This document shows positions 14,314 to 57,987 of a DNA stretch of 64,000 nt, piece after piece. A program made the translations under genes and the position numbers. The stretch's first letter is position 1, and the number at the start of each line of letters is the position of its first letter. The notes under the pieces were generated by a model. That model searched no databases. It was not told where the DNA came from and worked only from the letters and a program-made list of their open reading frames with translations. The stretch is from Siphonodentalium dalli. Its lineage: Eukaryota > Mollusca > Scaphopoda > Gadilida > Siphonodentaliidae. Location: the NCBI GenBank assembly GCA_032622095.1, contig CP136068.1:50650443-50714442 (forward strand). The letters run 5' to 3'.

Positions 14314-14688
14314 CTGCAGACATTGTACTTCTCATGTCGATAGCTTTGATAAAGATGCATTTCATATTCCGACACCATGTGGTTTTCTAGCTTTCTATGA
14401 CGAGTGCAAAAATTGAAAGTCAAACTTGTCAGTGTGTAAACGTTGTATCGGGTGGATAAATTTCCCGGGCATTTGCTCTCTTCTGGGAAATTTGTAGACA
14501 CGGTTCCGGTTAGCTTGAACGTCGTTGTCAATAGTTTTGTTTCAATAACTTGACACGATGCTAACACTTGATATACTAAATAAATTCCCCACTGTCAATG
14601 AGTAGTTAGTATGCTAAGTATGTTTTAAGTGCTGATGGTTAGTGGACAACATGAAAAGAATCTTCAGTTTATCAAATACTAGCAGGTT
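14314..14688. other. Spacer before the Helitron array
   Basis: AT-rich unique-looking sequence; ends with ...CAAATA, the host A that precedes the array. No gene seen. Confidence 0.4.
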
Positions 14689-15879
14689 AGCCCGCCACTG
14701 GCGGCATTCGTCCCATGGCTTTGTTCGAAAAAGCAATTGCAACAGGTTCCGAGACACTTGTGCTGCATTTGCAGCAAATTTCGGCAATAGTCAGAAACAT
14801 GACAATTTTAATTTAATTTTTTTTTTTCAATGAGTTAATTATTTCAATGAGTTAATTGTGCCTTTTTAATTTTTAAATTGAATTTTTTGTTTTTCAATTT
14901 TATCCGATTTTTTTTTTTTTCAATGAACCCGTCCATGACACTTCCCGTATTTAGCAAGTTTGAGCTCAATCGGTTCGAGTCTATAAAGGACACACATATA
15001 TATATGACGCTTCCCGTAGGTAGCAAGTTTGAGCTCAATCGGCATTCCCTGGAATTTCCCAGTCAATATTTAGCAAGTTTGAGCTCAATCGGTTCGAGTC
15101 TATAAAGGACACACTCATATATATGACACTTCCCGTAGGTAGCAAGTTTGAGCTCAATCGGCATTCCCTGGAATTTCCCAGTCACCAACGCGGCGTAATT
15201 TTGGTACATATATAGAGACCTGTGTAGTAAAGATGTATTATAAGCCGACATTGCCGTGAGGATGCCCGTTCCTACACGCGTTTTCGATTCTATGAAGTAC
15301 CCACATATATACACACATGCTATATTCGTGATTATCTGGGATGATTTCGGTATATACCGTAAAAACAAAGCGCGCCATCCGTGCTCGCAGGGAATAAATT
15401 TCGAGCGATAACGTTTGCGTAAATACGAAATTGTGAGTGTTGGTTTGTAACCGGGATTTCTGAGAAGCATTATGCCTATAACTACCCCCCCCCCCCCTAA
15501 GCCCTGACCTAAGTGTCATACATACTATAACAATGATGTTGTAAGAGCTCCAGTAAATCTCCCCGCATAGGCAAGCACTCAATGTTCCCGTATATAACTC
15601 TGCAGATGCTAATAACGTTGAATGGGAAACAGACGCTCTTTATAGAGATGCGTCAAAAACAAACGCTCATTAAATAATCACTTGATTAACCCACGCCGTG
15701 CCTTTGCGGTGATTTTGAGAGTGGAGAACGCGTGCTCTGAGCTTCTCCAAAACGCCGCGACGACGATTCCCGTGGATTTTTACATTTAGATGGGAAGTTT
15801 GAACTCAATCGAGCGAACCGTTTTCGATTCTATGAAGTACATATATATATATATATACGAAGTCTCAAAATATATAGTA
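14689..15879 (-). repeat. Helitron-like unit 1 (array 3' terminus)
   Basis: Its CTAG (14689-14692 on the plus strand) is the outer 3' end of the array, next to host T on the minus strand. It contains a tandem pair of blocks (about 14945-15061 and 15065-15183) with AAGTTTGAGCTCAATCGG, and a 12-nt poly-C tract at 15485-15496. It lacks the 122-bp repeats. Its junction with unit 2 lacks the TCTA start. Confidence 0.75.
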
Positions 15880-17552
15880 CTAGCAGGTTAGCCCGCCACT
15901 GGCGTGCTTGGTCAGAAACATGACATTTTTAAAATACATTTTTTAACGATTGATTCGTTAATTGAACTGAATGGTCAGAATACAGAATTGAAAACGTGAG
16001 GAGACAATCAATGAGTTAATTCTGCCTTTATATCAAGTGAAATTATGGTCTCACCATGGACCAATAACAATTCAAGTACAAAAGTTAATTAAATTGTAAA
16101 TTGTTTTCGTCCCATGGCTTTGTTTCAGAAACATGACATTTTTGTAATTATTTTGTTTTTATTTATTTTTGTTTTTTATTTTTTAATATGAATTTAATGT
16201 TTTTAAAATTTAATTTTTTGTTTCTGGCGGAAAAATTTACCCGTAGAAATCCCCCCTTCGTAGGAACGACAGACAACGCATTCTTTGTTTCGTGAAATCT
16301 CTCTACGATAACATTGCATTGAATTTAAAACAAACGCTTCCCGTCGGGAAATCTGTCTGCATAATATTTCGAGTCTGCCGTACCCGTCGTAATGTCGTGA
16401 AATCTCGACTGCATAATATATAACATTGCATTGAATCTGTTGTTGGCATTCAGGGCTTCGGGCCGTTGTTGTTGGCATCACGGCTCCCCGAAAACTCTCA
16501 CATTGCCGAAAACGTGTATTTAGTAATATCGTTGTTGTTGATATTTACGGCTTGGGGGCTATTTTCTCGCCAACAATGTCGTTGGCGTTCACGGTTTGGG
16601 GCAGTGTGTATAGCTGCGTGAGTTAGCAGGAATCGAGGGGTGTAAGTTTAGAGCTTGTTTATATGAATGTTTCGGAAATAGACTAAGATTTTCAGCCGTA
16701 ACAAAAAATGTATACATCAGAAAATGTAAATTCCATCGGCTTTCATGTGTAGTAAAGATGTCTTATAAGCCGACATTGCCGTGGGGATGCCCGTTCCTAC
16801 ACGCGTTTTCGATTCTATGAAGTACCCACATATATACACACATACACACATATATCCGATCGGTCGAGGTGTTGGTATCTGATGCAAAAGACGAAATTGT
16901 GAGTGTTGGTCAATAGTCCCCGCCGTGAACCTCATCGTCGCAAAGAGCGGACAGTCAATTAACCCCGTTGTGAACCTCAATCACCAACACGACGTAAACA
17001 TGTGTTACGTTCTAAAAATAGGAAAGCACTTAAGTTTGAGCTCAATCGGCATTCCCTGGAATTTCCCGTAGATTGGCAGATTAATATAATTCCAGTAGCT
17101 TCATAACGGTATATCTGGGGAGAAATCTGATGCTATATTCGTGATTATCTCGGATGATTTCGGTATATAACTATATACTGTAAAAACAAAGCGAGCCATC
17201 CGTGCTCGCAGGGTTGGTCAGAAACAAATGTTTTTTAAATTTAATGTGTGTTCCGTATATCTCTCTGCAGATGCAAATAACGTTGAATGGCAAACAGACG
17301 CTCTTTATAGCGATGCGTAAAAAACAAACGCTCATTAAATAATCACTTGATTAACCCCCGCCGTGCCTTTGCGGTGATTTGGGAGTGGATAAAGGGTGCT
17401 CAGGGCTTCTCGTAAACCCGACTACGGCGGTGTCGGTGGGATTTTACACTTACATACGAAATTTGATCTCAATCTGTACACGCGTTTTGGATTCTATGAA
17501 GTACACACACACATATATATATACGAAGTCTCAAAATATATAGTATAGAAGA
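15880..17552 (-). repeat. Helitron-like unit 2 (longest unit without a LINE)
   Basis: Begins CTAGCAGG on the plus strand and ends GAAGA before the next CTAG. It holds about 1 kb not shared with most units (15920-16700) in addition to the common CA-tract end block. No gene recognised. Confidence 0.7.
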
Positions 17553-18244
17553 CTAGCAGGTTAGCCCGCCACCGGCGGCTTGTCCGAAACATGACAATTT
17601 TATATAATTGTTTTTAATTTTTAGCTCCACGCGTTTCAATAAGAAAAATTTGTACCCGGTAGCTCCACCAGTTTCCGAGATCTGGTCTGCGCATGAAAAT
17701 TTGTACCCGGCGCAAGATACATTCACATGCCAAATTTCAAGTCGATAGCTCCACCCGTTTCCGAGATCTCGTCTGCGCATGCGCTGCACGGGCGTCGCAC
17801 GGGCTCGGCGACCCGATAAAATTTGTACCCGGCGCAAGATACATTCACATAGCAAATTTCAAGTCGATAGCTCCACCCGTTTCCGAGATCTCGTCTGCGC
17901 ATGCGCTGCACGGGCGTCGCACGGGCTCGCCAATACGACAACGACCACCGCCTGGTCAAACTACACACACGTACCAAGTTTTGTCCCGATCGGTCGAGAA
18001 TCGTAGATTTGTATGAAGTACAACACACACACAAACATAAATATATAAGAGAGATATGTAAATTAGATAGATTGTATCAAAATATATAGGAGAGATATGT
18101 AAATGATCTACACACCATTACTGGTGTTTGTCAAAGTTTAGTGGGGTATATCAATACTCATTCAAGATCATATCATTGAGGTCCGGAGGGTGTGGGCTAT
18201 CTCTCGAATACAAGGAGTTCTCAAAATATATAGAAGAGAAGAGA
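17553..18244 (-). repeat. Helitron-like unit 3 (short, alternative 5' end)
   Basis: Contains 122-bp repeats, then an ACAAACATAAATATATAAGAG end and a 145-bp segment (about 18098-18243) found elsewhere only at the end of unit 6. The junction reads ...AGAGA|CTAG, so the next unit's CTAG still abuts TC on the minus strand. Confidence 0.72.
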
Positions 18245-19561
18245 CTAGCAGGTTAGCCCGCCACCGGCGGCTTGTCCGAAACATGAGATTTTTAAAATAT
18301 TTTTGTTTAATTTTTAGCCCCACGCGTTTCAATAAGAAAAATTTGTACCCGGTAGCTCCACCCGTTTCCGAGATCTGGTCTGCGCATGCGCGAAGCTGGC
18401 GTCGCACGGACTCGGCGACCCGATAAAATGTGTACCCGGCGCAAGATACATTCACATAGCAAATTTCAAGTCGATAGCTCCACCCGTTTCCGAGATCTCG
18501 TCTGCGCATGCGCTGCACGGGCGTCGCACGGGCTCGGCGACCCGATAAAATTTGTACCCGGCGCAAGATACATTCACATACCAAATTTCAAGTCGATAGC
18601 TCCACCCGTTTCCGATATCTCGTCTGCGCATGCGTCGCACGGGCTCGCCAATACGACAGCGACGACCACCTGGTCAAACTACACTCACGTACCAAGTTTC
18701 GTCCCGATCGGTCGAGGTGTTGGTATCTGATGCAAAAGACGAAATTGTGAGTGTTGGTCAATAGTCCCCGCCGTGAACCTCATCGTCGCAAAGAGCGGAC
18801 AGTCAATTAACCCCGTTGTGAACCTCAATCACCAACGCGACGTAAACATGTGTTGCGTTCTAAAAATAGGAAAGCATTTTCTCTCTGCATAATTCTGCAG
18901 ATGCTAATAACGTTGCTCCCCGTAGGTAGCAATATCGTTGTTGTTGATATTTACGGCTTGGGGGCTATTTTCTTATTTAGCAAGTTTGAGCTCAATCGGT
19001 TCGAGTCTATAAAGGACACACTCATATATATGACACTTCCCGTGGGTAGCAAGTTTGAGCTCAATCGGCATTCCCTGGAATTTCCCGTAGATTGGCAGAT
19101 TCCAGTAGCTTTTTATAACGGTATATCTGGGGAGAAATCTGATGCTATATTCGTGATTATCTGGGATGATTTCGGTATATAACTATATACTGTAAAAACA
19201 AAGCGCGCCATCCGTGCTCGCAGGGTTGGTCAGAAACAAATGTTTTTTAAATTTAATGTATGTTCCGTATATCTCTCTGCAGATGCAAATAGCGTTGAAT
19301 GGCAAACAGACGCTCTTTATAGAGATGCGTCAAAAACAAACGCTCATTAAATAATCACTTGATTAACCCACGCCGTGCCTTTGCGGTGATTTGAGATTGG
19401 AGAACGGGTGCTCTGAGCTTTTCTAAACTGCGACCACGGTCGTGTCGGTGGTATTTGACACTTACATAGGAAGTTTGAGCTAAATCTTTACACGCGTTTT
19501 GGATTCTATGAAGTACACACACACACACACATATACGAAGTCTCAAAATATATAGTATAGA
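18245..19561 (-). repeat. Helitron-like unit 4 (full-length type, 1317 bp)
   Basis: Full-length type shared with units 5, 7, 11 and 12: hairpin end, 122-bp repeats, a common block with a 110-residue open frame (18850-19182), then the CA tract and TCTATACTATATA leader. That frame is the same in all five units, but so is the nucleotide sequence, so conservation does not imply coding. Confidence 0.8.
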
Positions 19562-20880
19562 CTAGCAGGTTAGCCCGCCACCGGCGGCTTGTCCGAAACA
19601 TGAGATTTTTAAAATATTTTTGTTTAATTTTTAGCCCCACGCGTTTCAATAAGAAAAATTTGTACCCGGTAGCTCCACCCGTTTCCGAGATCTGGTCTGC
19701 GCATGCGCGAAGCTGGCGTCGCACGGACTCGGCGACCCGATAAAATGTGTACCCGGCGCAAGATACATTCACATAGCAAATTTCAAGTCGATAGCTCCAC
19801 CCGTTTCCGAGATCTCGTCTGCGCATGCGCTGCACGGGCGTCGCACGGGCTCGGCGACCCGATAAAATTTGTACCCGGCGCAAGATACATTCACATACCA
19901 AATTTCAAGTCGATAGCTCCACCCGTTTCCGATATCTCGTCTGCGCATGCGTCGCACGGGCTCGCCAATACGACAGCGACGACCACCTGGTCAAACTACA
20001 CTCACGTACCAAGTTTCGTCCCGATCGGTCGAGGTGTTGGTATCTGATGCAAAAGACGAAATTGTGAGTGTTGGTCAATAGTCCCCGCCGTGAACCTCAT
20101 CGTCGCAAAGAGCGGACAGTCAATTAACCCCGTTGTGAACCTCAATCACCAACGCGACGTAAACATGTGTTGCGTTCTAAAAATAGGAAAGCATTTTCTC
20201 TCTGCATAATTCTGCAGATGCTAATAACGTTGCTCCCCGTAGGTAGCAATATCGTTGTTGTTGATATTTACGGCTTGGGGGCTATTTTCTTATTTAGCAA
20301 GTTTGAGCTCAATCGGTTCGAGTCTATAAAGGACACACTCATATATATGACACTTCCCGTGGGTAGCAAGTTTGAGCTCAATCGGCATTCCCTGGAATTT
20401 CCCGTAGATTGGCAGATTCCAGTAGCTTTTTATAACGGTATATCTGGGGAGAAATCTGATGCTATATTCGTGATTATCTGGGATGATTTCGGTATATAAC
20501 TATATACTGTAAAAACAAAGCGCGCCATCCGTGCTCGCAGGGTTGGTCAGAAACAAATGTTTTTTTAATTTAATGTATGTTCCGTATATCTCTCTGCAGA
20601 TGCAAATAGCGTTGAATGGCAAACAGACGCTCTTTATAGAGATGCGTCAAAAACAAACGCTCATTAAATAATCACTTGATTAACCCACGCCGTGCCTTTG
20701 CGGTGATTTGAGATTGGAGAACGGGTGCTCTGAGCTTTTCTAAACTGCGACCACGGTCGTGTCGGTGGGATTTGACACTTACATAGGAAGTTTGAGCTAA
20801 ATCTTTACACGCGTTTTGGATTCTATGAAGTACACACACACACACATATACGAAGTCTCAAAATATATAGTATAGATAGA
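19562..20880 (-). repeat. Helitron-like unit 5 (full-length type, 1319 bp)
   Basis: Nearly identical to unit 4 along its length. Differences are mainly in the CA tract and the T-rich stretch near 20563. Confidence 0.8.
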
Positions 20881-21730
20881 CCAGCAGGTTAGCCCGCCAC
20901 CGGCGGCTTGTCCGAAACATGACATTTTTTTATATATATATTTTTAATTTTTAGCTCCACGCGTTTCAATAAGAAAAATTTGTACCCGGTAGCTCCACCC
21001 GTTTCCGAAATCTGGTCTGCGCATGCGCGAAGCTGGCGTCGCACGGGCTCGGCGACCCGATAAAATGTGTACCCGGCGCAAGATACATTCACATACCAAA
21101 TTTCAAGTCGATAGCTCCACCCGTTTCCGAGATCTCGTCTGCGCATGCGCTGCACGGGCGTCGCACGGGCTCGGCGACCCGATAAAATTTGTACCCGGCG
21201 CAAGATACATTCACATAGCAAATTTCAAGTCGATAGCTCCACCCGTTTCCGAGATCTCGTCTGCGCATGCGCTGCACGGGCGTCGCACGGGCTCGGCGAC
21301 CCGATAAAATTTGTACCCGGCGCAAGATACATTCACATAGCAAATTTCAAGTCGATAGCTCCACCCGTTTCCGAGATCTCGTCTGCGCATGCGCTGCACG
21401 GGCGTCGCACGGGCTCGCCAATACGACAACGACCACCGTCTGGTCAAACTACACACACGTACCAAGTTTTGTCCCGATCGGTCGAGAATCGTAGATTTGT
21501 ATGAAGTACAACACACACAAACATAAATATATAAGAGAGATATGTAAATTAGATAGATTGTATCAAAATATATAGGAGAGATATGTAAATGATCTACACA
21601 CCATTACTGGTGTTTGTCAAAGTTTAGTGGGGTATATCAATACTCATTCAAGATCATATCATTGAGGTCCGGAGGGTGTGGGCTATCTCTCGAATACAAG
21701 GAGTTCTCAAAATATATAGAAGAGAAGAGA
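20881..21730 (-). repeat. Helitron-like unit 6 (four 122-bp repeats, mutated CTAG)
   Basis: The plus strand starts CCAGCAGG instead of CTAGCAGG, so its terminal CTAG has become CTGG on the minus strand. It holds four 122-bp repeats (from about 21000) and ends with the same 214-bp tail as unit 3. Confidence 0.75.
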
Positions 21731-23043
21731 CTAGCAGGTTAGCCCGCCACCGGCGGCTTGTCCGAAACATGAGATTTTTAAAATATTTTTGTTTAATTTT
21801 TAGCCCCACGCGTTTCAATAAGAAAAATTTGTACCCGGTAGCTCCACCCGTTTCCGAGATCTGGTCTGCGCATGCGCGAAGCTGGCGTCGCACGGACTCG
21901 GCGACCCGATAAAATGTGTACCCGGCGCAAGATACATTCACATAGAAAATTTCAAGTCGATAGCTCCACCCGTTTCCGAGATCTCGTCTGCGCATGCGCT
22001 GCACGGGCGCCGCACGGGCTCGGCGACCCGATAAAATTTGTACCCGGCGCAAGATACATTCACATACCAAATTTCAAGTCGATAGCTCCACCCGTTTCCG
22101 ATATCTCGTCTGCGCATGCGTCGCACGGGCTCGCCAATACGACAGCGACGACCACCTGGTCAAACTACACTCACGTACCAAGTTTCGTCCCGATCGGTCG
22201 AGGTGTTGGTATCTGATGCAAAAGACGAAATTGTGAGTGTTGGTCAATAGTCCCCGCCGTGAACCTCATCGTCGCAAAGAGCGGACAGTCAATTAACCCC
22301 GTTGTGAACCTCAATCACCAACGCGACGTAAACATGTGTTGCGTTCTAAAAATAGGAAAGCATTTTCTCTCTGCATAATTCTGCAGATGCTAATAACGTT
22401 GCTCCCCGTAGGTAGCAATATCGTTGTTGTTGATATTTACGGCTTGGGGGCTATTTTCTTATTTAGCAAGTTTGAGCTCAATCGGTTCGAGTCTATAAAG
22501 GACACACTCATATATATGACACTTCCCGTGGGTAGCAAGTTTGAGCTCAATCGGCATTCCCTGGAATTTCCCGTAGATTGGCAGATTCCAGTAGCTTTTT
22601 ATAACGGTATATCTGGGGAGAAATCTGATGCTATATTCGTGATTATCTGGGATGATTTCGGTATATAACTATATACTGTAAAAACAAAGCGCGCCATCCG
22701 TGCTCGCAGGGTTGGTCAGAAACAAATGTTTTTTAAATTTAATGTATGTTCCGTATATCTCTCTGCAGATGCAAATAGCGTTGAATGGCAAATAGACGCT
22801 CTTTATAGAGATGCGTCAAAAACAAACGCTCATTAAATAATCACTTGATTAACCCACGCCGTGCCTTTGCGGTGATTTGAGATTGGAGAACGGGTGCTCT
22901 GAGCTTTTCTAAACTGCGACCACGGTCGTGTCGGTGGTATTTGACACTTACATAGGAAGTTTGAGCTAAATCTTTACACGCGTTTTGGATTCTATGAAGT
23001 ACACACACACACACACATATACGAAGTCTCAAAATATATAGTA
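21731..23043 (-). repeat. Helitron-like unit 7 (full-length type)
   Basis: Nearly identical to unit 4 at an offset of 3486 bp. Its junction with unit 8 reads TAGTA|CTAG, that is, without the TCTA start. Confidence 0.78.
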
Positions 23044-24179
23044 CTAGCAGGTTAGCCCGCCACCGGCGGCTTGTCCGAAACATTGTTTATATTTTTTTTT
23101 AATTTTTAGCTCCACGCGTTTCAATCAGAAAAAATTGTACCCGGTAGCTCCACCCGTTTCCGAGATCTGGTCTGCGCATGCGCGAAGCTGGCTTCGCACG
23201 GACTCGGCGACCCGATCAAATTTGTACCCGGCCCAAGATACATTCACATAGCAAATTTCAAGTCGATAGCTCCACCCGTTTCCGATATCTCGTCTGCGCA
23301 TGCGCTGCACGGGCGTCGCATGGGCTCGGCGACCCGATAAAATTTGTACCCGGCGCAAGATACATTCACATTGCAATTTTCAAGTCGATAGCTCCACCCG
23401 TTTCCGAGATCTGCCTTTTTAATCGAGATAAATGCATTTCGTACCCGTCCTAATGTACTATTTCGAGCGATAACAATTGTCAGACTCCCATCGTGAACCT
23501 CAACACGAAGTAAACACGTGTTTCGAGCGATAACATTGCATTGAAGTCAGACTCCCATCGTGGACCCCCAAGACGACGTAAACACGTGTTTGTTCCCGTA
23601 TAACTCTGGAGACTCTGACTTCATATATATATATAATGACGTTATTAACCCCGGCCGTGCCGTTTGAGCTGATTTTAATGACTGGGAGTGGAGTACGGGT
23701 GCTCGGAGCTTCTGGAAAACGCGTGGACGACATCGTACGTGTTATTTTACCTCTAGATGGGAAGTTTGAGCTCAATCTGTCCAGCCGTTGTACTATTTCG
23801 AGCGATAACAATTGTCAGACTCCCATCGTGAACCTCAACACGAAGTAAACACGTGTTTCGAGCGATAACATTGCATTGAAGTCAGACTCCCATCGTGGAC
23901 CCCCAAGACGACGTAAACACGTGTTTGTTCCGGTATAACTCTGGAGACTCTGACTTCATATATATATATAATGACGTTATTAACCCCGGCCGTGCCGTTT
24001 GAGCTGATTTTGATGAATGGGAGTGGAGAACGGGTGCTCTGAGCTTTTCTAAACCGCGACCACTTTCGTGTCGGTGGGATTTGACACTTACATAGGAAAT
24101 TTGATCTCAATCTGTACACGCGTTTTGGATTCTATGAAGTACACACATACACACATACGAAGTCTCAAAATATATAGTA
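23044..24179 (-). repeat. Helitron-like unit 8 (variant interior)
   Basis: After two 122-bp repeats it switches at about 23415 to a different interior: two tandem blocks of about 340 bp, each with TTTCGAGCGATAACA and TGACGTTATTAACCCCGGC. The same interior, nearly identical, flanks the LINE in unit 10 (30436-31171). Confidence 0.75.
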
Positions 24180-25337
24180 CTAGCAGGTTAGCCCGCCACC
24201 GGCGGCTTGTCCGAAACATGACATTTTTTTAATATTTGTTTTTAATTTTTAGCTCCACGCGTTTCAATAAGAAAAATTTGTACCCGGTAGCTCCACCCGT
24301 TTCCGAGATCTGGTCTGCGCATGCGCGAAGCTGGCGTCGCACGGACTCGGCGACCCGATAAAATTTGTACCCGGCGCAAGATACATTCACATAGCAAATT
24401 TCAAGTCGATAGCTCCACCCGTTTCCGAGATCTCGTCTGCGCATGCGCTGCACGGGCGTCGCATGGACTCGGCGACCCGATAAAATTTGTACCCGGTGCA
24501 AGATACATTCACATAGCAAATTTCAGGTCGATAGCTCCACCCGTTTCCGAGATCTGCCTTTCTGCATAATATTTCGAGCGATAACATTGCATTGAAATGT
24601 CAGACTCCCATCGTGAAGCTCAACACGAAGTAAACACGTGTTTCGAGCGATAACATTGCATTGAAATGACTCCCATCGTAAACCTCAAGACGACGTAAAA
24701 CACGTGTTGCGTTCTAGGAAATGCACTCAATGCAGATGCTAATAACGTTGACTTCGTATATATATATATAATGACGTTATTAACCCCGGCGGTGCCGTTT
24801 GAGCTGATTTTTATGACTGGGAGTGGAGTACGGGTGCTCGGAGCTTCTGGAAAACGCGTGTACGACATCGTACGTGTTATTTTACCTTTAGATAGGAAGT
24901 TTGAGCTCAATCTGTCCAGCCGTTCCCGTCCTAATGTACTATTTCGAGCGATAACAATTGTCAGACTCCCATCGTGAACCTCAACACGAAGTAAACACGT
25001 GTTTCGAGCGATAACATTGCATTGAAGTCAGACTCCCATCGTGGACCCACAAGACGACGTAAACACGTGTTTGTTCCGGTATAACTTTGGAGACTCTGAC
25101 TTCATATATATATATAATGACGTTATTAACCCCGGCCGTGCCGTTTGAGCTGATTTCGATGACTGGGAGTGGATAAAGGGTGCTCAGAGCTTCTCGAAAA
25201 CACATCTACGGCGGTGTCGGTGGGATTTTACACTTACATACGAAATTTGATCTCAATCTGTACACGCGTTTTGGATTCTATGAAGTACACACATACACAC
25301 ATACGAAGTCTCAAAATATATAGTATAGATAGATAGA
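24180..25337 (-). repeat. Helitron-like unit 9 (variant interior)
   Basis: Related to unit 8: 122-bp repeats followed by the TTTCGAGCGATAACA / TGACGTTATTAACCCCGGC blocks, with internal differences. It ends with a (GATA)n-type leader before unit 10. Confidence 0.75.
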
Positions 25338-25634
25338 CTAGCAGGTTAGCCCGCCACCGGCGTCTTGTCCGAAACATGAGATTTTTAAAATATTTTTGTT
25401 TAATTTTTAGCCCCACGCGTTTCAATAAGAAAAATTTGTACCCGGTAGCTCCACCCGTTTCCGAGATCTCGTCTGCGCATGCGCGAAGCTGGCGTCGCAC
25501 GGACTCGGCGACCCGATAAAATGTGTACCCGGCGCAAGATACATTCACATAGCAAATTTCAAGTCGATAGCTCCACCCGTTTCCGAGATCTCGTCTGCGT
25601 ATGCAATAAACTGGGAGCAGTGGTACAGTCTTGC

Positions 25635-26684
25635 ATGCAAACTGATCCCACTCAACCAATCGATTTGCTGTGGAAAGCTACCGACATGTCACATCATAAT
25701 TTGTCAATAGGAGATCCTCAGGCAAACAGCAGTACAAACTCTGGAACACAAAACCAACCTAGGACACCGGGTGCTCTTGCTACAAATTCCAATGATATAA
25801 TTATTGACAGTGTAGTGAATAACAGTGATGTTAGCCCTAAAATCCTGCCCGAACCGTCGGTCGATCCACTCGACCACTTATCTCCTATAAATTGGTCAAA
25901 GGATACCAGCTCCCTAATGAGGGAAATTCTTGTCAAGACCAAAACATCTACTGACTTTACTACCACGAATCAAGCTGACACTCAGTCAAGATCTCCAACA
26001 TTCAGTAATATGCTGGCGAATACCGCAGGTGTTGGCAATTCGATTGCCTCTTCGAAAGCGCAATCTGACAATGTCGCATCGGGACAACATTCCTCGCACT
26101 CTACTTCAAACTATAACGAAAGTTTAAATAGCATTCCTGTCATTTCAACAACCGAGCAGAATGAGGAGAGACAACGAACGTCCAACACAGACCGCACGCG
26201 CGACGACATGAGAATGGCCCACAACTCGTCAGTTCGTAATAAATATGACAACAACTCGAAAATGCAAGTATTCAATTCATACCACCAACAAACTTCAGCA
26301 TCAGAAACTGAATCGACGCACATATTCCATGATGTCCCACCACGCGATTACCACGATGAAGAATATCGTCACGACGATACATGCGGCTTTAAAGGCGTGT
26401 TACCTAAAAGAGGTCGGAGAACCCGTAAAATCTTTATAGGAAGGATTGCTACAACTGCCAAAGAACGCGATCTTTGGACATTCTTCGAAAATAGAGGCAT
26501 ATTGCCCACATTCGTTCGACTCATGGCCAGTACAAGGAATGGCACACAATCAGCCCGAGTTAATTTATACGCAGATGATATAAAATTGCTGTACCAAGAA
26601 GATTTCTGGCCCAAAGGCATCATTGCCAGACCATGGCGTTCTGATCCACCTCAGCGTGACTATCATGGAGATACAGCCAAATAA
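25635..26684 (+). CDS. LINE ORF1 protein (RNA-binding, RRM-like C-terminus)
   Basis: ORF1 proteins of two-ORF LINEs bind the element RNA and form the retrotransposition particle. From the ATG at 25635 the protein has 349 residues; the ATG at 25686 is an alternative start. The frame is open further upstream to 25479, but that part is Helitron sequence and is excluded. The first two thirds are Ser/Thr/Asn/Gln-rich and look disordered. The last 85 or so residues form a compact basic domain with KIFIGRI, ARVNLYADD and FWPKGIIARPW, the pattern of RRM-like domains in many LINE ORF1 proteins. I see no CCHC zinc knuckle and no clear coiled coil. The stop (26682-26684) lies inside ORF2. Confidence 0.8.
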   Translation: MQTDPTQPIDLLWKATDMSHHNLSIGDPQANSSTNSGTQNQPRTPGALATNSNDIIIDSVVNNSDVSPKILPEPSVDPLDHLSPINWSKDTSSLMREILVKTKTSTDFTTTNQADTQSRSPTFSNMLANTAGVGNSIASSKAQSDNVASGQHSSHSTSNYNESLNSIPVISTTEQNEERQRTSNTDRTRDDMRMAHNSSVRNKYDNNSKMQVFNSYHQQTSASETESTHIFHDVPPRDYHDEEYRHDDTCGFKGVLPKRGRRTRKIFIGRIATTAKERDLWTFFENRGILPTFVRLMASTRNGTQSARVNLYADDIKLLYQEDFWPKGIIARPWRSDPPQRDYHGDTAK

Positions 26685-29600
26685 GCTTAATATATTGACG
26701 TGGAATGCCACAGGCTTCATGTCATCCCAGCTATACATTTGTGATATTCTGAAAACATTAAAATACAGCTTCGTCGGAATATCGGAGCATTGGCTTAGTG
26801 AACAAAATGTTATTTCACTTGAAACACTACATCATTCTTATTCCGCCGTGGTAAAGCCGGGGCGAACAATCAAAACTAAAATTAACGCCACGTTCACAAG
26901 AGACGGAGTAGCCATAATGATACGAAAAGACTTGCTCAACAGATGTACAGTGATCGATCTACCACACGAATGGTGCGCAGGCATCAACTTCAACGTTTCC
27001 CCCAGCATGTCACTGGCATTCATTCAAGTATATATGCCAAACACAAACCATGGAGATGACGAATTTCAGAAGTGTTTAGCATCTCTGTTGGACATTTATT
27101 CCATGCTATCACAAGAAAGTTCTGTTATTTTAATGGGTGATTTCAACGTACACCTAGGAGATGCCAGAGGTGAAAATCTCCCCACGCGTCACTCGTTCCG
27201 TTCTATGGTTATGAATACATTCTCCAAAGACACATGCATGTGGTCTACTGTTTGTTCGCCTTCGTGCAAGGGACCACGATTCACATTCTTTCCTTTCGCT
27301 GCAGTGGCCAGTCCAACCACTATTGATCATATCTTCATACCAGAATGTATGGTACATTTGGTATCGTCATGTCGCGTCTTGGATGATGTACCATCGAATG
27401 TGTCAAACCATCTGCCTGTGACATGTGCCATTACCGTGGACATGTATGACCACCAAACCACAGCCACCCGCAAACACATCCGCACTGTGTATAAATGGAA
27501 AGGTGATGACACTCAGGGTTACCGTATAATCCTGAATACGGCGTGCTCCGAGATGTTAAAGCGACATATCGTTGACAATTCTGACGTTGATAAATTGTAC
27601 GCGGATGTTGTATCCTCACTCCATGAGGCTGCCCTGTCAGCTATTGGTGAACGAAAGTTCCAGACACACACGAAGCCCTACTGGAATTCTGACCTATCTT
27701 CGCTACAACAAAATGTGAAAGCAAACCGTTCAAAGTGGTTATTGTCTGGGAAAAAACATTCTACGGAATCAAGTGATTATCTGAACTACAAGGACTCAAA
27801 ACGTCGATTTCGGCGGGCTCTAAGGATAGCCGTGCGCAATCACGAGCAAAAATTCCTGTTAGATGTTGAAACTGCAGCAAACGAAAATCCCACTCGTTTC
27901 TGGAAAATGACGAAGTCTAAAACTAACTCCCATGCAGTTACGAGTGGTATGGATTTCGGAAATGGTATGTGTAAAGAGCCTAGTGCGATCTTATCAGGCT
28001 GGAAATGCTATTTTGAGAACTTATACACTCCCACAGTACACGCTGATCCCGAGTTCAACAAATTCATTACCAACAGCCTCTCGTCGGAATTCGATCCCTC
28101 CTGCATAAATTATGACTCGACAGTATTTTGCAATGAAATTATGTCAGAAGATGTCAATGCTCAAATAAAAAACATGAAGAAAAACAAATCATCGGGTCCG
28201 GATGGTATTGCTAACGAGCACCTGATATTTTCTTCTAAACTCATGGTGTCAGTGATTTGTAAACTCTTCAATGGTATTCTTTCACGGGAATGGATTCCCA
28301 CGGTTATGAAATCTGGTATCATTATTCCTCTGCACAAAGGCGACCCGAAGCCGCGGACTAAGCCAGACAGTTATCGTGCAATCACACTTCTCTCCTCATT
28401 GTATAAACTATTCGAGTCGGTCATCTTACACAGATTTCTGAAAAGTCCATCCCTTAATAAATTTCCACATGCTCTGCAATTCGGATTCCAGAAGGGAGTC
28501 AGCTGCACTATGACGTCATTCATTGTGCAAGAAGCTATACACTATGCACGCGACAACCACTCCAAAGCTTATGTTTGCTACCTTGACTCTGCAAAGGCAT
28601 TTGACTGCGTTTGGCACGAGGGCCTCCTGTACAAACTGAACGACCTCGGATTCAATGGGAAAATACTTCGGATAATCCGCAACATGTACTCAAATTGCGC
28701 TAGCCGTGTGCTCCATAATGGTGATTTGTCAGAGTCATTTGAAATTCGTCAAGGAACAAGACAAGGGGCCGTAACATCGCCTTTTTTCTACTTGACATTC
28801 ATTGACGATCTCTTGTCTACTCTGGAAGTTTCAGATCAAGGTGCATCTATTGGCAATATCAACACTACCTCACCAACAACTGCAGATGATATTACTATAG
28901 TTTCCCTCACAAAAGCTGGTTTGGACAACTTGATGAAAATCTGCTTCAACTACAGCAAGAAATGGCGCTTCTGTTTTTCAAAATCTAAGAGTTCCGTTGT
29001 CGTATACAACGAAACGAAACAACAACACACAAACCAACAAAGATCGTGGGTTCTTGGGAATGACACGATCGATGAAAGCACCGACTGTCGCCATCTGGGA
29101 ATTTCTCAAGGAAAATTCGGCAACACTGTTAACCGTGCTACAAATATATCTGAAGTGTTGAGAAAAACATACTTCTCTATCGCTGGTAGGAAATCCTTAA
29201 GTATGTGCACCCCTCTCACAATGAATAATCTCCTACACACAGTTGTGCTTCCAAAGGCTCTTTATGGCGCTGAACTCCTATATTCAACAGATGACAACGC
29301 TCTCTGCACAATTGAAAAGGGTCTACGTACATGTATAAAGCACATACAGAATCTTCCAACAAGGGCGAGCACAAACCTCTCACTCAGTCTCCTGGGTGTT
29401 TTACCGATGAGTCGCCAACTACATTTGAGAAAACTTCTCTTCCTCGGCGAACTTATCCACTTGCCTGCGACTCGAGACTTTCCTTTACGAATTTTCATGA
29501 AAAACCTCTATATGCACAATTTATTCAATGTGAATACCACCCGTTATGTAAAAGACATCATCGATGTTCTAGAAGTGTACAATCTGTCTTCTTATCTTCA

Positions 29601-30153
29601 AGAATTCTTATCTTCTGGATCCTTCCCAAAGAAGATCATTTGGAAGCAACTCGTTAAGTCGACCATAAGAGCCCACTATTGTGATGCATGGACTTCAGCA
29701 GTGGGTGCCAATGGTCGCTCTTCTAATCTTCTCCTCATTCATAACCAGCCTCTCGCAGTCTGGAGTGTGTGGCGTCTTCTTGCTGCCCATCCTAACAGGA
29801 GTTTGGAACTGAAAAATCTTGCTAGACTTCTAAATAGATTGTTGTTCGAAAACAATGCCCGATGCATGCTGTGTGGCCACACATATAACAATGAAATTGG
29901 ACATATCACTGACTCGTGCATATCTGCCACCATGTACAGACTCCGATATAATTACTGGTGTATGCTTATCGATAGCTTCGACATCCAACTATTTAGTTAC
30001 CTGGATGCTCTCCCAAACGACCATTTAAATGCGCTGTTACTTGGCAGTACCCAGCTTGGTTGTCATATCCCGACTGAGTCATGGGAGCAGCTCATCATCG
30101 CATCTGCTGCATTTCTGTATGTTGGTTGTCAACTAATTCGCCCCGGAAGTTAA
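26665..30153 (+). CDS. LINE ORF2 protein: AP-like endonuclease and reverse transcriptase
   Basis: The enzyme nicks target DNA and primes reverse transcription there. Residue numbers count from the upstream ATG at 26623 (1176 residues); the likelier start is at 26665 (1162 residues), overlapping ORF1 by 20 bp. Endonuclease, about 22-270: N28 (TWNATG), E55 (SEHW), Y137, D173 and N175 (GDFN), D235-H236 (IDH), and S261-N262-H263 where SDH is usual. Reverse transcriptase, about 500-800: SSGPDGI (523-529), YRAITLLSSLYKLFE, motif A D655 (DSAKAFD), motif B RQGTRQGAVTSP, and motif C T753-A-D-D instead of YADD. A C-terminal zinc-finger-like C-x2-C-x9-H-x4-C lies near 1080-1100. No stops or frameshifts, so the frame looks intact. 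Whether SNH weakens cleavage cannot be told from sequence. Confidence 0.93.
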   Translation: MEIQPNKLNILTWNATGFMSSQLYICDILKTLKYSFVGISEHWLSEQNVISLETLHHSYSAVVKPGRTIKTKINATFTRDGVAIMIRKDLLNRCTVIDLPHEWCAGINFNVSPSMSLAFIQVYMPNTNHGDDEFQKCLASLLDIYSMLSQESSVILMGDFNVHLGDARGENLPTRHSFRSMVMNTFSKDTCMWSTVCSPSCKGPRFTFFPFAAVASPTTIDHIFIPECMVHLVSSCRVLDDVPSNVSNHLPVTCAITVDMYDHQTTATRKHIRTVYKWKGDDTQGYRIILNTACSEMLKRHIVDNSDVDKLYADVVSSLHEAALSAIGERKFQTHTKPYWNSDLSSLQQNVKANRSKWLLSGKKHSTESSDYLNYKDSKRRFRRALRIAVRNHEQKFLLDVETAANENPTRFWKMTKSKTNSHAVTSGMDFGNGMCKEPSAILSGWKCYFENLYTPTVHADPEFNKFITNSLSSEFDPSCINYDSTVFCNEIMSEDVNAQIKNMKKNKSSGPDGIANEHLIFSSKLMVSVICKLFNGILSREWIPTVMKSGIIIPLHKGDPKPRTKPDSYRAITLLSSLYKLFESVILHRFLKSPSLNKFPHALQFGFQKGVSCTMTSFIVQEAIHYARDNHSKAYVCYLDSAKAFDCVWHEGLLYKLNDLGFNGKILRIIRNMYSNCASRVLHNGDLSESFEIRQGTRQGAVTSPFFYLTFIDDLLSTLEVSDQGASIGNINTTSPTTADDITIVSLTKAGLDNLMKICFNYSKKWRFCFSKSKSSVVVYNETKQQHTNQQRSWVLGNDTIDESTDCRHLGISQGKFGNTVNRATNISEVLRKTYFSIAGRKSLSMCTPLTMNNLLHTVVLPKALYGAELLYSTDDNALCTIEKGLRTCIKHIQNLPTRASTNLSLSLLGVLPMSRQLHLRKLLFLGELIHLPATRDFPLRIFMKNLYMHNLFNVNTTRYVKDIIDVLEVYNLSSYLQEFLSSGSFPKKIIWKQLVKSTIRAHYCDAWTSAVGANGRSSNLLLIHNQPLAVWSVWRLLAAHPNRSLELKNLARLLNRLLFENNARCMLCGHTYNNEIGHITDSCISATMYRLRYNYWCMLIDSFDIQLFSYLDALPNDHLNALLLGSTQLGCHIPTESWEQLIIASAAFLYVGCQLIRPGS

Positions 30154-30435
30154 AAGATGACATTCACATGACTTTTGATGCAATATGCCTCTCATGTGGA
30201 CAATTTTCAACTATGATCTGGCCTCCTTGCCACCCGCATCTACAATGTTTTATCATATACTCGTTTTTACCTTGCTATTCGTACAATGTACACACCTTTC
30301 CAATGTATGTATACAATGTCCTTCCTTGTAAATAGATGCTGGTGTATAGTCCACTTACAATGGTCTCGTTACCACATATTTTCTGTAACTGATATGTATA
30401 TATGCTCTTCATACTTGGAGGTCAATAAACAATAA
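30154..30435 (+). promoter_or_regulatory. LINE 3' UTR with polyadenylation signal
   Basis: Non-coding tail from the ORF2 stop to the junction with Helitron sequence. AATAAA occurs at 30424-30429, just before an AATAATAA tail, consistent with a LINE 3' end. Confidence 0.65.
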
Positions 30436-31172
30436 TAATGTACTATTTCGAGCGATAACAATTGTCAGACTCCCATCGTGAACCTCAACACGAAGTAAAC
30501 ACGTGTTTCGAGCGATAACATTGCATTGAAGTCAGACTCCCATCGTGGACCCCCAAGACGACGTAAACACGTGTTTGTTCCCGTATAACTCTGGAGACTC
30601 TGACTTCATATATATATATAATGACGTTATTAACCCCGGCCGTGCCGTTTGAGCTGATTTTAATGACTGGGAGTGGAGTACGGGTGCTCGGAGCTTCTGG
30701 AAAACGCGTGGACGACATCGTACGTGTTATTTTACCTCTAGATGGGAAGTTTGAGCTCAATCTGTCCAGCCGTTGTACTATTTCGAGCGATAACAATTGT
30801 CAGACTCCCATCGTGAACCTCAACACGAAGTAAACACGTGTTTCGAGCGATAACATTGCATTGAAGTCAGACTCCCATCGTGGACCCCCAAGACGACGTA
30901 AACACGTGTTTGTTCCGGTATAACTCTGGAGACTCTGACTTCATATATATATATAATGACGTTATTAACCCCGGCCGTGCCGTTTGAGCTGATTTTGATG
31001 AATGGGAGTGGAGAACGGGTGCTCTGAGCTTTTCTAAACCGCGACCACTTTCGTGTCGGTGTGATTTGACACTTACATAGGAAATTTGATCTCAATCTGT
31101 ACACGCGTTTTGGATTCTATGAAGTACACACATACACACATACGAAGTCTCAAAATATATAGTATAGATAGA

Positions 31173-32491
31173 CTAGCAGGTTAGCCCGCCACCGGCGTCT
31201 TGTCCGAAACATGAGATTTTTAAAATATTTTTGTTTAATTTTTAGCCCCACGCGTTTCAATAAGAAAAATTTGTACCCGGTAGCTCCACCCGTTTCCGAG
31301 ATCTCGTCTGCGCATGCGCGAAGCTGGCGTCGCACGGACTCGGCGACCCGATAAAATGTGTACCCGGCGCAAGATACATTCACATAGCAAATTTCAAGTC
31401 GATAGCTCCACCCGTTTCCGAGATCTCGTCTGCGTATGCGCTGCACGGGCGTCGCACGGGCTCGGCGACCCGATAAAATTTGTACCCGGCGCAAGATACA
31501 TTCACATACCAAATTTCAAGTCGATAGCTCCACCCGTTTCCGATATCTCGTCTGCGCATGCGTCGCACGGGCTCGCCAATACGACAGCGACGACCACCTG
31601 GTCAAACTACACTCACGTACCAAGTTTCGTCCCGATCGGTCGAAGTGTTGGTATCTGATGCAAAAGACGAAATTGTGAGTGTTGGTCAATAGTCCCCGCC
31701 GTGAACCTCATCGTCGCAAAGAGCGGACAGTCAATTAACCCCGTTGTGAACCTCAATCACCAACGCGACGTAAACATGTGTTGCGTTCTAAAAATAGGAA
31801 AGCATTTTCTCTCTGCATAATTCTGCAGATGCTAATAACGTTGCTCCCCGTAGGTAGCAATATCGTTGTTGTTGATATTTACGGCTTGGGGGCTATTTTC
31901 TTATTTAGCAAGTTTGAGCTCAATCGGTTCGAGTCTATAAAGGACACACTCATATATATGACACTTCCCGTGGGTAGCAAGTTTGAGCTCAATCGGCATT
32001 CCCTGGAATTTCCCGTAGATTGGCAGATTCCAGTAGCTTTTTATAACGGTATATCTGGGGAGAAATCTGATGCTATATTCGTGATTATCTGGGATGATTT
32101 CGGTATATAACTATATACTGTAAAAACAAAGCGCGCCATCCGTGCTCGCAGGGTTGGTCAGAAACAAATGTTTTTTAAATTTAATGTATGTTCCGTATAT
32201 CTCTCTGCAGATGCAAATAGCGTTGAATGGCAAATAGACGCTCTTTATAGAGATGCGTCAAAAACAAACGCTCATTAAATAATCACTTGATTAACCCACG
32301 CCGTGCCTTTGCGGTGATTTGAGATTGGAGAACGGGTGCTCTGAGCTTTTCTAAACTGCGACCACGGTCGTGTCGGTGGTATTTGACACTTACATAGGAA
32401 GTTTGAGCTAAATCTTTACACGCGTTTTGGATTCTATGAAGTACACACACACACACACACATATACGAAGTCTCAAAATATATAGTATAGA
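31173..32491 (-). repeat. Helitron-like unit 11 (full-length type, 1319 bp)
   Basis: Same organisation and nearly the same sequence as units 4, 5, 7 and 12. The second GCGCATGC motif is changed to GCGTATGC near 31433, shared with unit 10. Confidence 0.8.
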
Positions 32492-33810
32492 CTAGCAGGT
32501 TAGCCCGCCACCGGCGTCTTGTCCGAAACATGAGATTTTTAAAATATTTTTGTTTAATTTTTAGCCCCACGCGTTTCAATAAGAAAAATTTGTACCCGGT
32601 AGCTCCACCCGTTTCCGAGATCTGGTCTGCGCATGCGCGAAGCTGGCGTCGCACGGACTCGGCGACCCGATAAAATGTGTACCCGGCGCAAGATACATTC
32701 ACATAGCAAATTTCAAGTCGATAGCTCCACCCGTTTCCGAGATCTCGTCTGCGCATGCGCTGCACGGGCGTCGCACGGGCTCGGCGACCCGATAAAATTT
32801 GTACCCGGCGCAAGATACATTCACATACCAAATTTCAAGTCGATAGCTCCACCCGTTTCCGATATCTCGTCTGCGCATGCGTCGCACGGGCTCGCCAATA
32901 CGACAGCGACGACCACCTGGTCAAACTACACTCACGTACCAAGTTTCGTCCCGATCGGTCGAGGTGTTGGTATCTGATGCAAAAGACGAAATTGTGAGTG
33001 TTGGTCAATAGTCCCCGCCGTGAACCTCATCGTCGCAAAGAGCGGACAGTCAATTAACCCCGTTGTGAACCTCAATCACCAACGCGACGTAAACATGTGT
33101 TGCGTTCTAAAAATAGGAAAGCATTTTCTCTCTGCATAATTCTGCAGATGCTAATAACGTTGCTCCCCGTAGGTAGCAATATCGTTGTTGTTGATATTTA
33201 CGGCTTGGGGGCTATTTTCTTATTTAGCAAGTTTGAGCTCAATCGGTTCGAGTCTATAAAGGACACACTCATATATATGACACTTCCCGTGGGTAGCAAG
33301 TTTGAGCTCAATCGGCATTCCCTGGAATTTCCCGTAGATTGGCAGATTCCAGTAGCTTTTTATAACGGTATATCTGGGGAGAAATCTGATGCTATATTCG
33401 TGATTATCTGGGATGATTTCGGTATATAACTATATACTGTAAAAACAAAGCGCGCCATCCGTGCTCGCAGGGTTGGTCAGAAACAAATGTTTTTTTAATT
33501 TAATGTATGTTCCGTATATCTCTCTGCAGATGCAAATAGCGTTGAATGGCAAACAGACGCTCTTTATAGAGATGCGTCAAAAACAAACGCTCATTAAATA
33601 ATCACTTGATTAACCCACGCCGTGCCTTTGCGGTGATTTGAGATTGGAGAACGGGTGCTCTGAGCTTTTCTAAACTGCGACCACGGTCAAGTCGGTGGGA
33701 TTTGACACTTACATAGGAAGTTTGAGCTAAATCTTTACACGCGTTTTGGATTCTATGAAGTACACACACACACACATATACGAAGTCTCAAAATATATAG
33801 TATAGATAGA
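32492..33810 (-). repeat. Helitron-like unit 12 (full-length type, 1319 bp)
   Basis: Nearly identical to unit 11 and unit 5. The junction with unit 13 is GATAGA|CTAG, an exact CTAG/TC join on the minus strand. Confidence 0.8.
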
Positions 33811-35006
33811 CTAGCAGGTTAGCCCGCCACCGGCGGCTTGTCCGAAACATGACATTTTTTTATATATATTTTTTTAATTTTTAGCTCCACGCGTTTCAAT
33901 AAGAAAAATTTGTACCCGGTAGCTCCACCCGTTTCCGAGATCTGGTCTGCGCATGCGCGAAGCTGGCGTCGCACGGGCTCGGCGACCCGATAAAATGTGT
34001 ACCCGGCGCAAGATACATTCACATACCAAATTTCAAGTCGATAGCTCCACCCGTTTCCGATATCTCGTCTGCGCATGCGCTGCACGGGCGTCGCACGGGC
34101 TCGCCAATACGACAGCGACGACCACCTGGTCAAACTACACTCACGTACCAAGTTTCGTCCCGATCGGTCGAGGTGTTGGTATCTGATGCAAAAGACGAAA
34201 TTGTGAGTGTTGGTCAATAGTCCCCGCCGTGAACCTCATCGTCGCAAAGAGCGGACAGTCAATTAACCCCGTTGTGAACCTCAATCACCAACGCGACGTA
34301 AACATGTGTTGCGTTCTAAAAATAGGAAAGCACTTTCTCTCTGCATAATTCTGCAGATGCTAATAACGTTGCTCCCCGTAGGTAGCAATATCGTTGTTGT
34401 TGATATTTACGGCTTGGGGGCTATTTTCTTATTTAGCAAGTTTGAGCTCAATCGGTTCGAGTCTATAAAGGACACACTCATATATATGACACTTCCCGTG
34501 GGTAGCAAGTTTGAGCTCAATCGGCATTCCCTGGAATTTCCCGTAGATTGGCAGATTCCAGTAGCTTTATAACGATATATCTGGGGAGAAATCTGATGCT
34601 ATATTCGTGATTATCTGGGATGATTTCGGTATATACCGAACTATAAAAACAAAGCGCGCCATCCGTTCTCGCAGGGAATAAATTTCGAGCGATAACGTTT
34701 GCGTTCCCGTATAACTCTGCAGATGCGAATAACGTTGAATGGGAAACAGACGCTCTTTATAGAGATGCGTCAAAAACAAACGCTCATTAAATAATCACTT
34801 GATTAAACCCCGCCGTGCCTTTGCGGTGATTTGAGATTGGAGAACGGGTGCTCTGGGCTTCTCTAAACCGCGACCACGGTCGTGTCGGTGGGTATTTGAC
34901 ACTCACATAGGAAATTTGATCTCAATCTGTACACGCGTTTTGGATTCTATGAAGTACACACACACACACACACACATATACGAAGTCTCAAAATATATAG
35001 TATAGA
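33811..35006 (-). repeat. Helitron-like unit 13 (one 122-bp repeat fewer)
   Basis: Same order as unit 12 but about 120 bp shorter, because one 122-bp repeat is absent between 34020 and 34110. The distal part (after 34560) resembles units 1 and 14 rather than 12. Confidence 0.75.
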
Positions 35007-36210
35007 CTAGCAGGTTAGCCCGCCACTGGCGGCATTCGTCCCATGGCTTTGGTCGATTCATTAATTTTAGTTTTTCAATGTAACCCCGTACAGGACCGGG
35101 CTACTCAAAAACCAAATTTCAAGTCGATAGCTCCACCCGTTTCCGAGATCTGGTTTGCGCATGCGAGAATCTGGCGTCGCACGGGCTCGGCGACCCGATA
35201 AAATTCGTATCCGGGGCAAGATACATTCACATACCAAATTTCAAGTCGATAGCTCCACCCGTTTCCGATATCTCGTCTGCGCATGCGCTGCACGGGCGTC
35301 GCACGGGCTCGCCAATACGACAGCGACGACCACCTGGTCAAACTACACTCACGTACCAAGTTTCGTCCCGATCGGTCGAGGTGTTGGTATCTGATGCAAA
35401 AGACGAAATTGTGAGTGTTGGTCAATAGTCCCCGCCGTGAACCTCATCGAAGCAAAGAGCGGACAGTCAATTAACCCCGTTGTGAACCTCAATCACCAAC
35501 GCGACGTAAACATGTGTTGCGTTCTAAAAATAGGAAAGCACTTTCTCTCTGCATAATTCTGCAGATGCTAATAACGTTGCTCCCCGTAGGTAGCAATATC
35601 GTTGTTGTTGATATTTACGGCTTGGGGGCTATTTTCTTATTTAGCAAGTTTGAGCTCAATCGGTTAGAGTCTATAAAGGACACACTCATATATATGACAC
35701 TTCCCGTAGGTAGCAAGTTTGAGCTCAATCGGCATTCCCTGGAATTTCCCGTAGATTGACAGATTCCAGTAGCTTTATAACGGTATATCTGGGGAGAAAT
35801 CTGATGCTGTATTCGTGATTATCTGGGATGATTTCGGTATATACCAAAGGTATATACTGTAAAAACAAAGCGCGCCATCCGTGCTCGCAGGGAATAAATT
35901 TCGAGCGATAACGTTTGCGTTCCCGTATAACTCTGCAGATGCGAATAACGTTGAATGGGAAACAGACGCTCTTTATAGAGATGCGTCAAAAACAAACGCT
36001 CATTAAATAATTACTTGATTAACCCACGCCGTGCCTTTGCGGTGATTTTGAGAGTGGAGAACGCGTGCTCTGAGCTTCTCCAAAACGCCGCGACGACGAT
36101 TCCCGTGGGTTTTTACATTTAGATGGGAAGTTTGAACTCAATCGAGCGAACCGTTTTCGATTCTATGAAGTACATATATATATACGAAGTCTCAAAATAT
36201 ATAGTATAGA
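35007..36210 (-). repeat. Helitron-like unit 14
   Basis: Starts with the CCGCCACTGGCGG hairpin version also seen in unit 1, then diverges (35040-35110) before joining the 122-bp repeat region. It lacks the usual CA tract and has a short TA tract near 36173. Confidence 0.72.
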
Positions 36211-36980
36211 CTAGCCGATGAGCCCGACGTTGTCCGGGCTATTCAAAAACCAAATTTCAAGTCGATAGCTCCACCCGTTTCCGAGATCTGGTCTGCGCAT
36301 GCGCGAAGCTGGCGTCGCACGGGCTCGACGACCCGATGAAATTCGTATCCTGGGCAAGATACATTCACATACCAAATTTCAAGTCGATAGCTCCACCCGT
36401 TTCCGAGATCTTGTCTGCGCATGCGCGAAGCTTCCGAGATCTCGTCTGCGCATGCGCGAAGCGGGATGAGCCCGACGTTGTCCGGGCTATTCAAAAACCA
36501 AATTTCAAGTCGATAGCTCCACCCGTTTCCGAGATCTGGTCTGCGCATGCGCGAAGCTGGCGTCGCACGGGCTCGGCGACCCGATAAAATTCGTATCCGG
36601 GGCAAGACACATTCACATACCAAATTTCAAGTCGATATCTCCACCCGTTGTCGAGATCTCGTCTGCGCATGCGCGAAGCTGGCGTCGCACGGGCTCGGCG
36701 ACCCGATAAAATTCGCATCCGGGGCAAGATACATTCACATACCAAATATCAAGTCGATAGCTCCACCCGTTTCCGAGATCTCGTCTGCGCATGCGCGAAG
36801 CGGGCGCCGCACGGGCTCGCCAATACGACAACGTTCACCGCCTTGTCAAACTACACACACGTACCAAGTTTCGTCCCGATCGGTCGAGAATCGTAGATTT
36901 GTATAAATGACAGACAGACAGACAAACAAACAAACATACATACAGACAGAGGTCTTCAAAATATATATGAGATAGATAGA
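36211..36980 (-). repeat. Helitron-like unit 15 (array 5' terminus, different 3' hairpin)
   Basis: It has its own hairpin: AGCCCG at 36221-36226 pairs with CGGGCT at 36235-36240, six nt from CTAG (36211-36214). A second copy of this hairpin region without CTAG lies at about 36470-36495. The outer right end carries GACA/AACA/TACA tracts and finishes ...GATAGATAGA|TTTGCAG, so the array's first minus-strand bases are TC, preceded by host A. Confidence 0.75.
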
Positions 36981-51483: not shown

Positions 51484-51714
51484 ATATGTTTACATGTCTT
51501 CGGTCGACCAAAGCGTATATGTATACATGTCTTCAGTCGACCAAAGCGTATATGTATACATGTCTTCAGTCGACCAAAGCGTATATGTATACATGTCTTC
51601 AGTCGACCAAAGCGTATATGTATACATGTCTTCAGTCGACCAAAGCGTATATGTATACATGTCTTCAGTCGACCAAAGCGTATATGTATACATGTCTTCA
51701 GTCGACCAAAGCCG
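51484..51714. repeat. 33-bp minisatellite, 7 copies
   Basis: Units of GTATATGTATACATGTCTTC followed by AGTCGACCAAAGC. Only the first copy differs slightly. The array starts at the first base after the MITE. Since 33 is divisible by three, frames read 11-residue repeats on both strands; these are not evidence for a protein. Confidence 0.92.
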
Positions 51715-57943: not shown

Positions 57944-57987
57944 GTTTAGTATGGAACGCCATAGCTGCCTTATATTGCCGATTGTCA

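Follow-up and report, generated by a model that had tools for sequence, protein, structure and literature searches.

An array of 15 flush-joined Helitron units in a scaphopod genome, probably stacked by separate insertions into the 5' ends of older copies

Does a Helitron array in which each unit abuts the next with no host base between them record a single event of runaway replication, or many separate insertions? This question is posed by a locus of the scaphopod mollusc Siphonodentalium dalli, in a stretch of 64,000 nucleotides (hereafter the window; contig CP136068.1 of assembly GCA_032622095.1, positions 50,650,443 to 50,714,442, with zero N). Fifteen Helitron units on the minus strand run here from 36980 (5') to 14679 (3'), and are numbered U1 to U15 from the outermost 5' unit to the innermost 3' unit. 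The initial annotation of the window recognized the units, their Helitron ends, their orientation and their end-to-end joining, all of which hold; it placed the 5' border correctly at 36980, whereas its 3' border, 14689, is 10 bases off. It also took the array for a rolling-circle concatemer, on the grounds that separate insertions would have left A/T host bases between the units. The comparisons described below lead to a different reading: the array is probably a stack of separate insertions into the 5' ends of older copies that was later partly duplicated.

All 14 junctions between units are flush, with zero bases between neighbours (a vertical bar marks the joint in what follows). As had been annotated, 11 of the 14 pass straight into TC (10 of these after CTAG and one after CTGG); the other three, at the starts of U8, U9 and U15, pass into TACT and read CTAG|TACTATATA. 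The array is bounded by host A|TCTATC... on the 5' side and by ...CTGCTAG|TATTTG, then host, on the 3' side. This is a real Helitron array, with ends and an A|T insertion site that fit canonical Helitrons. The 3' terminus is CTAG in 14 of the 15 units and CTGG in U10, in agreement with the CTRR consensus, and DNA folding yields a stem-loop 10 bases before both 3' end types, with an ordinary energy for the 3A end (z -0.22) and a better one for the U1 end (z -2.0); RNA folding parameters favour a different fold for the 3A end. Each of the 15 units has its own 3' end, unlike the plant centromeric pattern of several 5' ends with one 3' end. The 3' hairpin and terminus of U1 (..CATCGGCTAG) are unlike those of the other units, and U10 and U13 represent a third 5' family (F4).

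The genome (a 2.23-Gb assembly in 9 contigs) contains 10,907 occurrences of the exact 18-base 3' end of the array, compared with 0 for the reversed control pattern, so that this end cannot be attributed to chance. In 4,678 of the 10,907 cases (43%), the 3' end runs into a 5' end, i.e. is followed by T and, within at most 16 bases, by the main-type 5' core CTATATATTTTGAGA. Twenty loci picked as lone 3' ends (L001-L020) and 20 picked as arrays were sampled, all of them the first listed places on the contig C1 and thus not a random genome sample. Even among the supposedly lone ends, a 5' end of another family follows in L002, L012, L019 and L020, and a degenerate 5' end follows in L017. The 15 host-flanked starts found in L001-L020 largely bear out the A|TC border that the initial annotation expected of solo units: 11 read A|TC, whereas G precedes TC in L009 and L016, and the starts in L001 and L018 lie within TA repeats. 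Together with the T that follows the 3' end in 32 of 34 host flanks, these starts indicate insertion at A|T without target duplication. At some junctions in three sampled loci (L029, L030 and L037), CTAG lacks its G (CTA|TCTA).

At least 151 matches to the Helitron Rep domain are present in the genome (the best 150 of 457 candidates were scored). One sampled locus, L041, near 13.74 Mb on C1, includes a RepHel Helitron, an 8.7-kb unit with a 1,614-residue open frame containing Rep and Pif1-type helicase domains (PF14214, PF05970), which lies flush between its neighbours in an array. Its end types are those of U1, so the autonomous Rep/helicase element with matching ends that the initial annotation anticipated exists, for the U1 family only, no search having been aimed at a partner with the 3A end. 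RepHel families would be responsible for the insertions, and the L041 element would also move the 3A-ended units.

The sites at which these elements enter host DNA follow a rough motif, A|TNNTATATA. Of 34 distinct host 3' flanks, 28 have a TATA that starts at +2 to +7 (13 of the 34 are from loci selected for G at +2; six repeated flanks were dropped, an internal false end, L003, and a decayed 5' end, L031, were kept, and flanks resembling a 5' end, in L029, L040, L083, L088 and L096, were filtered as junctions and so left out), compared with 7.9% of 8,722 A|T sites elsewhere in the window (p 1e-25) and with 26% of a background matched for A+T (p 1e-11). The elements' own 5' leader contains this motif: A|TACTATATATTTTG has TATA at +4 and +6, and A|TCTATACTATATATTTTG at +3 and +8.

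The main (F1) leader can be written (TCTA)n TACTATATATTTTGAGACTTCG, where n is the number of TCTA copies, and the TACT starts correspond to n=0. The distribution of n depends strongly on what lies upstream. At junctions, n=0, n=1 and n=2 are represented by 1,022, 1,767 and 364 F1 leaders, compared with 3, 178 and 49 at host sites, where the counts cover AA flanks and leave uncounted the sites with another base before the A. The ratio of n=0 to n=1 is accordingly 0.58 at junctions and 0.017 at AA-flanked host sites (Fisher p=6e-30). The split leaders would then be scars that mark insertion events: if a copy inserts at TCTA|TACT, the TCTA lost by the older unit is expected before the newcomer. 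A displaced TCTA indeed precedes the upstream unit at 11 of 19 n=0 junctions, compared with 2 of 15 n=1 junctions (p=0.013). The comparison covers, past 58.3 Mb on C1, the first 20 loci of each class (separate ones for n=0), and the upstream start was not found in 1 and 5 of these, respectively. In L042, L044 and L054, the displaced TCTA precedes families whose common start has zero TCTA, and in L049 and L060, a family that already has one TCTA of its own. Within the window, the leader of U7 has n=3 and those of U8 and U9, which come next, have n=0 each, so that the two extra copies in U7 match the two that are missing; in U1, two TCTA copies precede its own TCTCATATATA start.

The converse comparison is only suggestive. 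Exactly one TCTA precedes 184 F2 units at junctions, and in 8 of the first 20 the next unit has a TACTATATATTTTGAGA leader, with n=0 in six, n=1 in one and n=2 in one. The 6 of 8 with n=0 exceed 1,022 of 3,153 GAGACTTCG leaders (p=0.017), a base rate that represents a subset; against the closer base rate of 32 of 74 such leaders, from the first 100 listed junction places, p is 0.07.

These observations can be accommodated by a simple scheme. The transposase would favour A|T beside a TATA-like stretch, roughly A|TNNTATATA, a target that the 5' leader, (TCTA)nTACTATATATTTTG, itself includes. A newcomer could land either at A|TC, the tip of the older copy, or at TCTA|TACT, inside its leader, and given that Helitrons make no target duplication, either landing site would yield a flush CTAG|T join with zero host bases. 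In the second case, the old unit would start with TACT and its TCTA would end up before the newcomer. Each newcomer would supply a fresh landing pad, the insertion order would run toward the 5' end, and some blocks would subsequently have been copied by local duplication.

The 71 complete internal units of the window and 21 sampled loci (L021-L041) form 49 adjacent pairs. By global alignment, six pairs are at least 99% identical, 7 are 90-99% identical over 85% of the longer unit, and the remaining 36 fall into neither class (2 of them solely because U6 contains a long interspersed nuclear element, LINE). A first pass based on the single BLAST match gave 37 unlike pairs of 49, 19 of them with different end families, as defined by automatic labels that merge some variants. 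In the window, two of the 14 pairs (U4-U5 and U11-U12) reach 99%, U2-U3, U3-U4 and U7-U8 are 94.7-96.9% identical across 90% or more of the longer unit, and in the remaining pairs the alignment covers under 85% of the longer member, in two cases only due to the LINE. A rolling-circle concatemer, in which a circular intermediate is replicated past the 3' hairpin and the resulting multimer is inserted whole, has precedent in the Helitron circles with exact end-to-start joins (PMC4778049, PMC5876387), and head-to-tail junctions and tandem arrays have been cited as support for rolling-circle transposition (PMC5876387, PMC4067079). The near-identical pairs, including two at 100% among three 1,125-base units of L021, also speak for it. 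Such runaway copying, however, predicts like units and like junctions, and most neighbours are different elements, 36 of the 49 pairs not being full-length homologues at 90%; nor does it predict the near absence of TACT at AA-flanked host sites or the displaced TCTA, and the TACT joints resemble insertion scars. The argument from base counts is invalid: flush joins do not prove a concatemer because insertion at the A|T of an older copy leaves no host base either, the host A and the T of TC constituting the AT target. Given the unlike neighbours and the scars, a strict concatemer is rejected for most junctions, and as the origin of the whole array it is quite unlikely; for the pairs at or above 99% (2 of 14 in the window and 6 of 49 in the sample, window included), it is possible, beside local duplication, and one or the other is needed to account for this minority of joins.

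Duplication has left evident traces. U4, U5, U9, U11 and U12 are mutually 99.4-99.8% alike, and when U12 is searched against the genome, the copies in the array outscore all those elsewhere (best 40 of 2,645 scored; best elsewhere 99%); U9-U10 and U12-U13 represent a repeated block, and in an array at C1:49026559-49043559, the spacing 1301, 1118, 1302, 1301, 1118, 1301 partly repeats with a three-unit period, which suggests block duplication. Nevertheless, unequal exchange, in tandem or in blocks, is unlikely to have expanded one or two insertions into most of the array: it cannot create the first mixed junctions, leaves the junction-bound loss of TCTA unexplained, and has to contend with the same shortage of full-length homologues among the sampled neighbours. 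Slippage in the TCTA repeat, which would have made the TACT starts irrespective of how units were joined, draws on the microsatellite-like variation of the leaders from n=0 to n=3 but is very unlikely: it expects equal fractions of n=0 at junctions and host sites, and is rejected by the host-flank control given above, as well as being at odds with a TCTA before families whose common start has none. Although repetitive DNA is easily misassembled, an artefact is hardly credible when thousands of such junctions, with mixed units and canonical borders, occur in an assembly of 9 contigs.

Several observations weigh against the array having been built by insertion into older 5' ends. The bookkeeping of TCTA copies over arrays holds only partly: the displaced TCTA is missing from the upstream unit at 8 of the 19 n=0 junctions; n=1 directly precedes n=0 in L021, L022 and L023, which copies landing later in between would explain; and among the first 20 prefixed F2 units, other families or other sequence come next in 9, and 3 have no 3' end within 950 bases. 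A list-based neighbour test, in which 35 of 61 neighbours were unlisted, gives a weak difference (p=0.10, and 0.04 once n=0 neighbours are excluded), and n=2 is not significantly more frequent at host flanks than at junctions (p=0.098). The motif A|TNNTATATA is expected at about 1.0 million sites genome-wide (an extrapolation from the 19 sites that the window has in 83 kb of strand); therefore, mimicry alone would bring at most a few per cent of insertions to 5' ends, and the 43% of 3' ends that meet a 5' end need an extra attraction or later duplication. The transposase may additionally bind the leader as a donor end. Furthermore, L006 and L032 are paralogous (host flanks 94 and 97% alike, common unit 98.9%), and on the 3' side L032 carries one more unit than L006, which growth at the 5' end does not predict; either a later G|T insertion re-using the host TATA, or loss of a unit from L006 by exchange between shared 3' ends, or independent insertions would account for it. 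In the sole test for an age gradient, the hairpin variant CCAGTGG (as opposed to CCGGTGG) is present in 15 of the 20 host-flanked ends and in 32 of the 60 ends at junctions (p=0.12), and was not used as an age mark.

The units of the array differ in family, leader and size (Table 1). The LINE within U6 spans 25610-30440 on the plus strand (ends placed by eye). Tandem repeats of approximately 122 bases are found inside U1-U5 and U7-U13, a satellite within the array. Elsewhere in the window, two 21-base tandem arrays, at 57982-58285 and 59545-59895, lie ~1.3 kb apart and have consensus units that are reverse complements except for one base; a 34-base repeat at 2484-3132 consists of 19 copies with 98% matches; and further tandem arrays occupy 7494-8578 and 51484-51721. 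Rfam and tRNA scans of the window gave no matches.

Table 1. Units of the Helitron array and the LINE open frame, in window coordinates.
Feature	Position	Strand	Description
U1	36211..36980	-	outermost 5' unit; 5' family F2; 3' end ..CATCGGCTAG
U2	35007..36210	-	F1; TCTATACT start (n=1)
U3	33811..35006	-	F1; n=1
U4	32492..33810	-	F1; n=2; 99.4% identity to U5
U5	31173..32491	-	F1; n=1
U6	25338..31172	-	F1; n=2; LINE inside; 5.8 kb because of the LINE
LINE open frame in U6	26584..30153	+	endonuclease and reverse transcriptase (PF00078, PF03372)
U7	24180..25337	-	F1; n=3
U8	23044..24179	-	F1; split leader; TACT start; n=0
U9	21731..23043	-	F1; split leader; n=0
U10	20881..21730	-	F4; start TCTCTTCTCTTC; end CTGG
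U11	19562..20880	-	F1; n=2; 99.8% identity to U12
U12	18245..19561	-	F1; n=1; genome-search query
U13	17553..18244	-	F4; 98.7% identity to U10 over 81% of the longer unit
U14	15880..17552	-	F1; start TCTTCTATACT
U15	14679..15879	-	innermost 3' unit; split leader; n=0; CTAG|T border to host

Earlier publications already cover flush arrays, the AT argument and AT-rich targeting. The split-leader scar and the match between the leader and A|TNNTATATA were not found in the literature searched, most subscription journals being outside the search. A search of papers for a bat terminus gave no match. The TCTA|TACT scar is a countable mark that distinguishes serial insertion from concatemer formation at an individual junction, and any genome that has arrays of this kind can be screened for it; it also illustrates a route by which a mobile element that targets its own ends could form satellite-like blocks. 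More generally, 5' termini that mimic the preferred landing site would set up a positive feedback, and this, instead of missed termination, might be the origin of flush Helitron arrays at large, those of bats and maize included, a tentative generalization that falls somewhat short of an even chance.

The closest parallel is in maize, where Du et al. (2008; PMC2267711) propose for two adjacent Helitrons that the later one inserted into the AT of the older copy's start, as opposed to the earlier view, related in the same paper, that a host A should remain between separately inserted Helitrons. As here, CTAG is joined to TC, the junction is G/T and the elements are unlike; this is, however, one pair, for which the text available from that paper has no scar or target-motif match, compared with the thousands of junctions in S. 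dalli. The tandem arrays of Myotis (Pritham and Feschotte 2007, as cited in PMC2267711 and PMC4067079) have perfect head-to-tail joins like those described here and were interpreted as rolling-circle repeats, whereas in S. dalli neighbours are mostly unlike and insertion scars are present. Insertions of one Helitron beside another in Myotis are backed by empty-site evidence, with a 5' end against another element's 3' end, and Helraiser prefers AT-rich DNA, most strongly on the 3' side, both as here; the accessible text of this source (PMC4778049), unlike the present case, gives no specific TATA motif or leader scar. Plant centromeric Helitrons (Xiong et al. 2016, as cited in PMC12628747 and PMC5148889) also form tandem arrays, many of which have several 5' ends and one 3' end, in contrast to the 3' end carried by each unit in S. 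dalli. Finally, the dimers of Drosophila transposable elements (McGurk and Barbash, as cited in PMC12628747) show that double insertion at a preferred site results in tandems, as proposed here; they are not tied to Helitrons in that account, whereas in S. dalli each element brings its own landing site.

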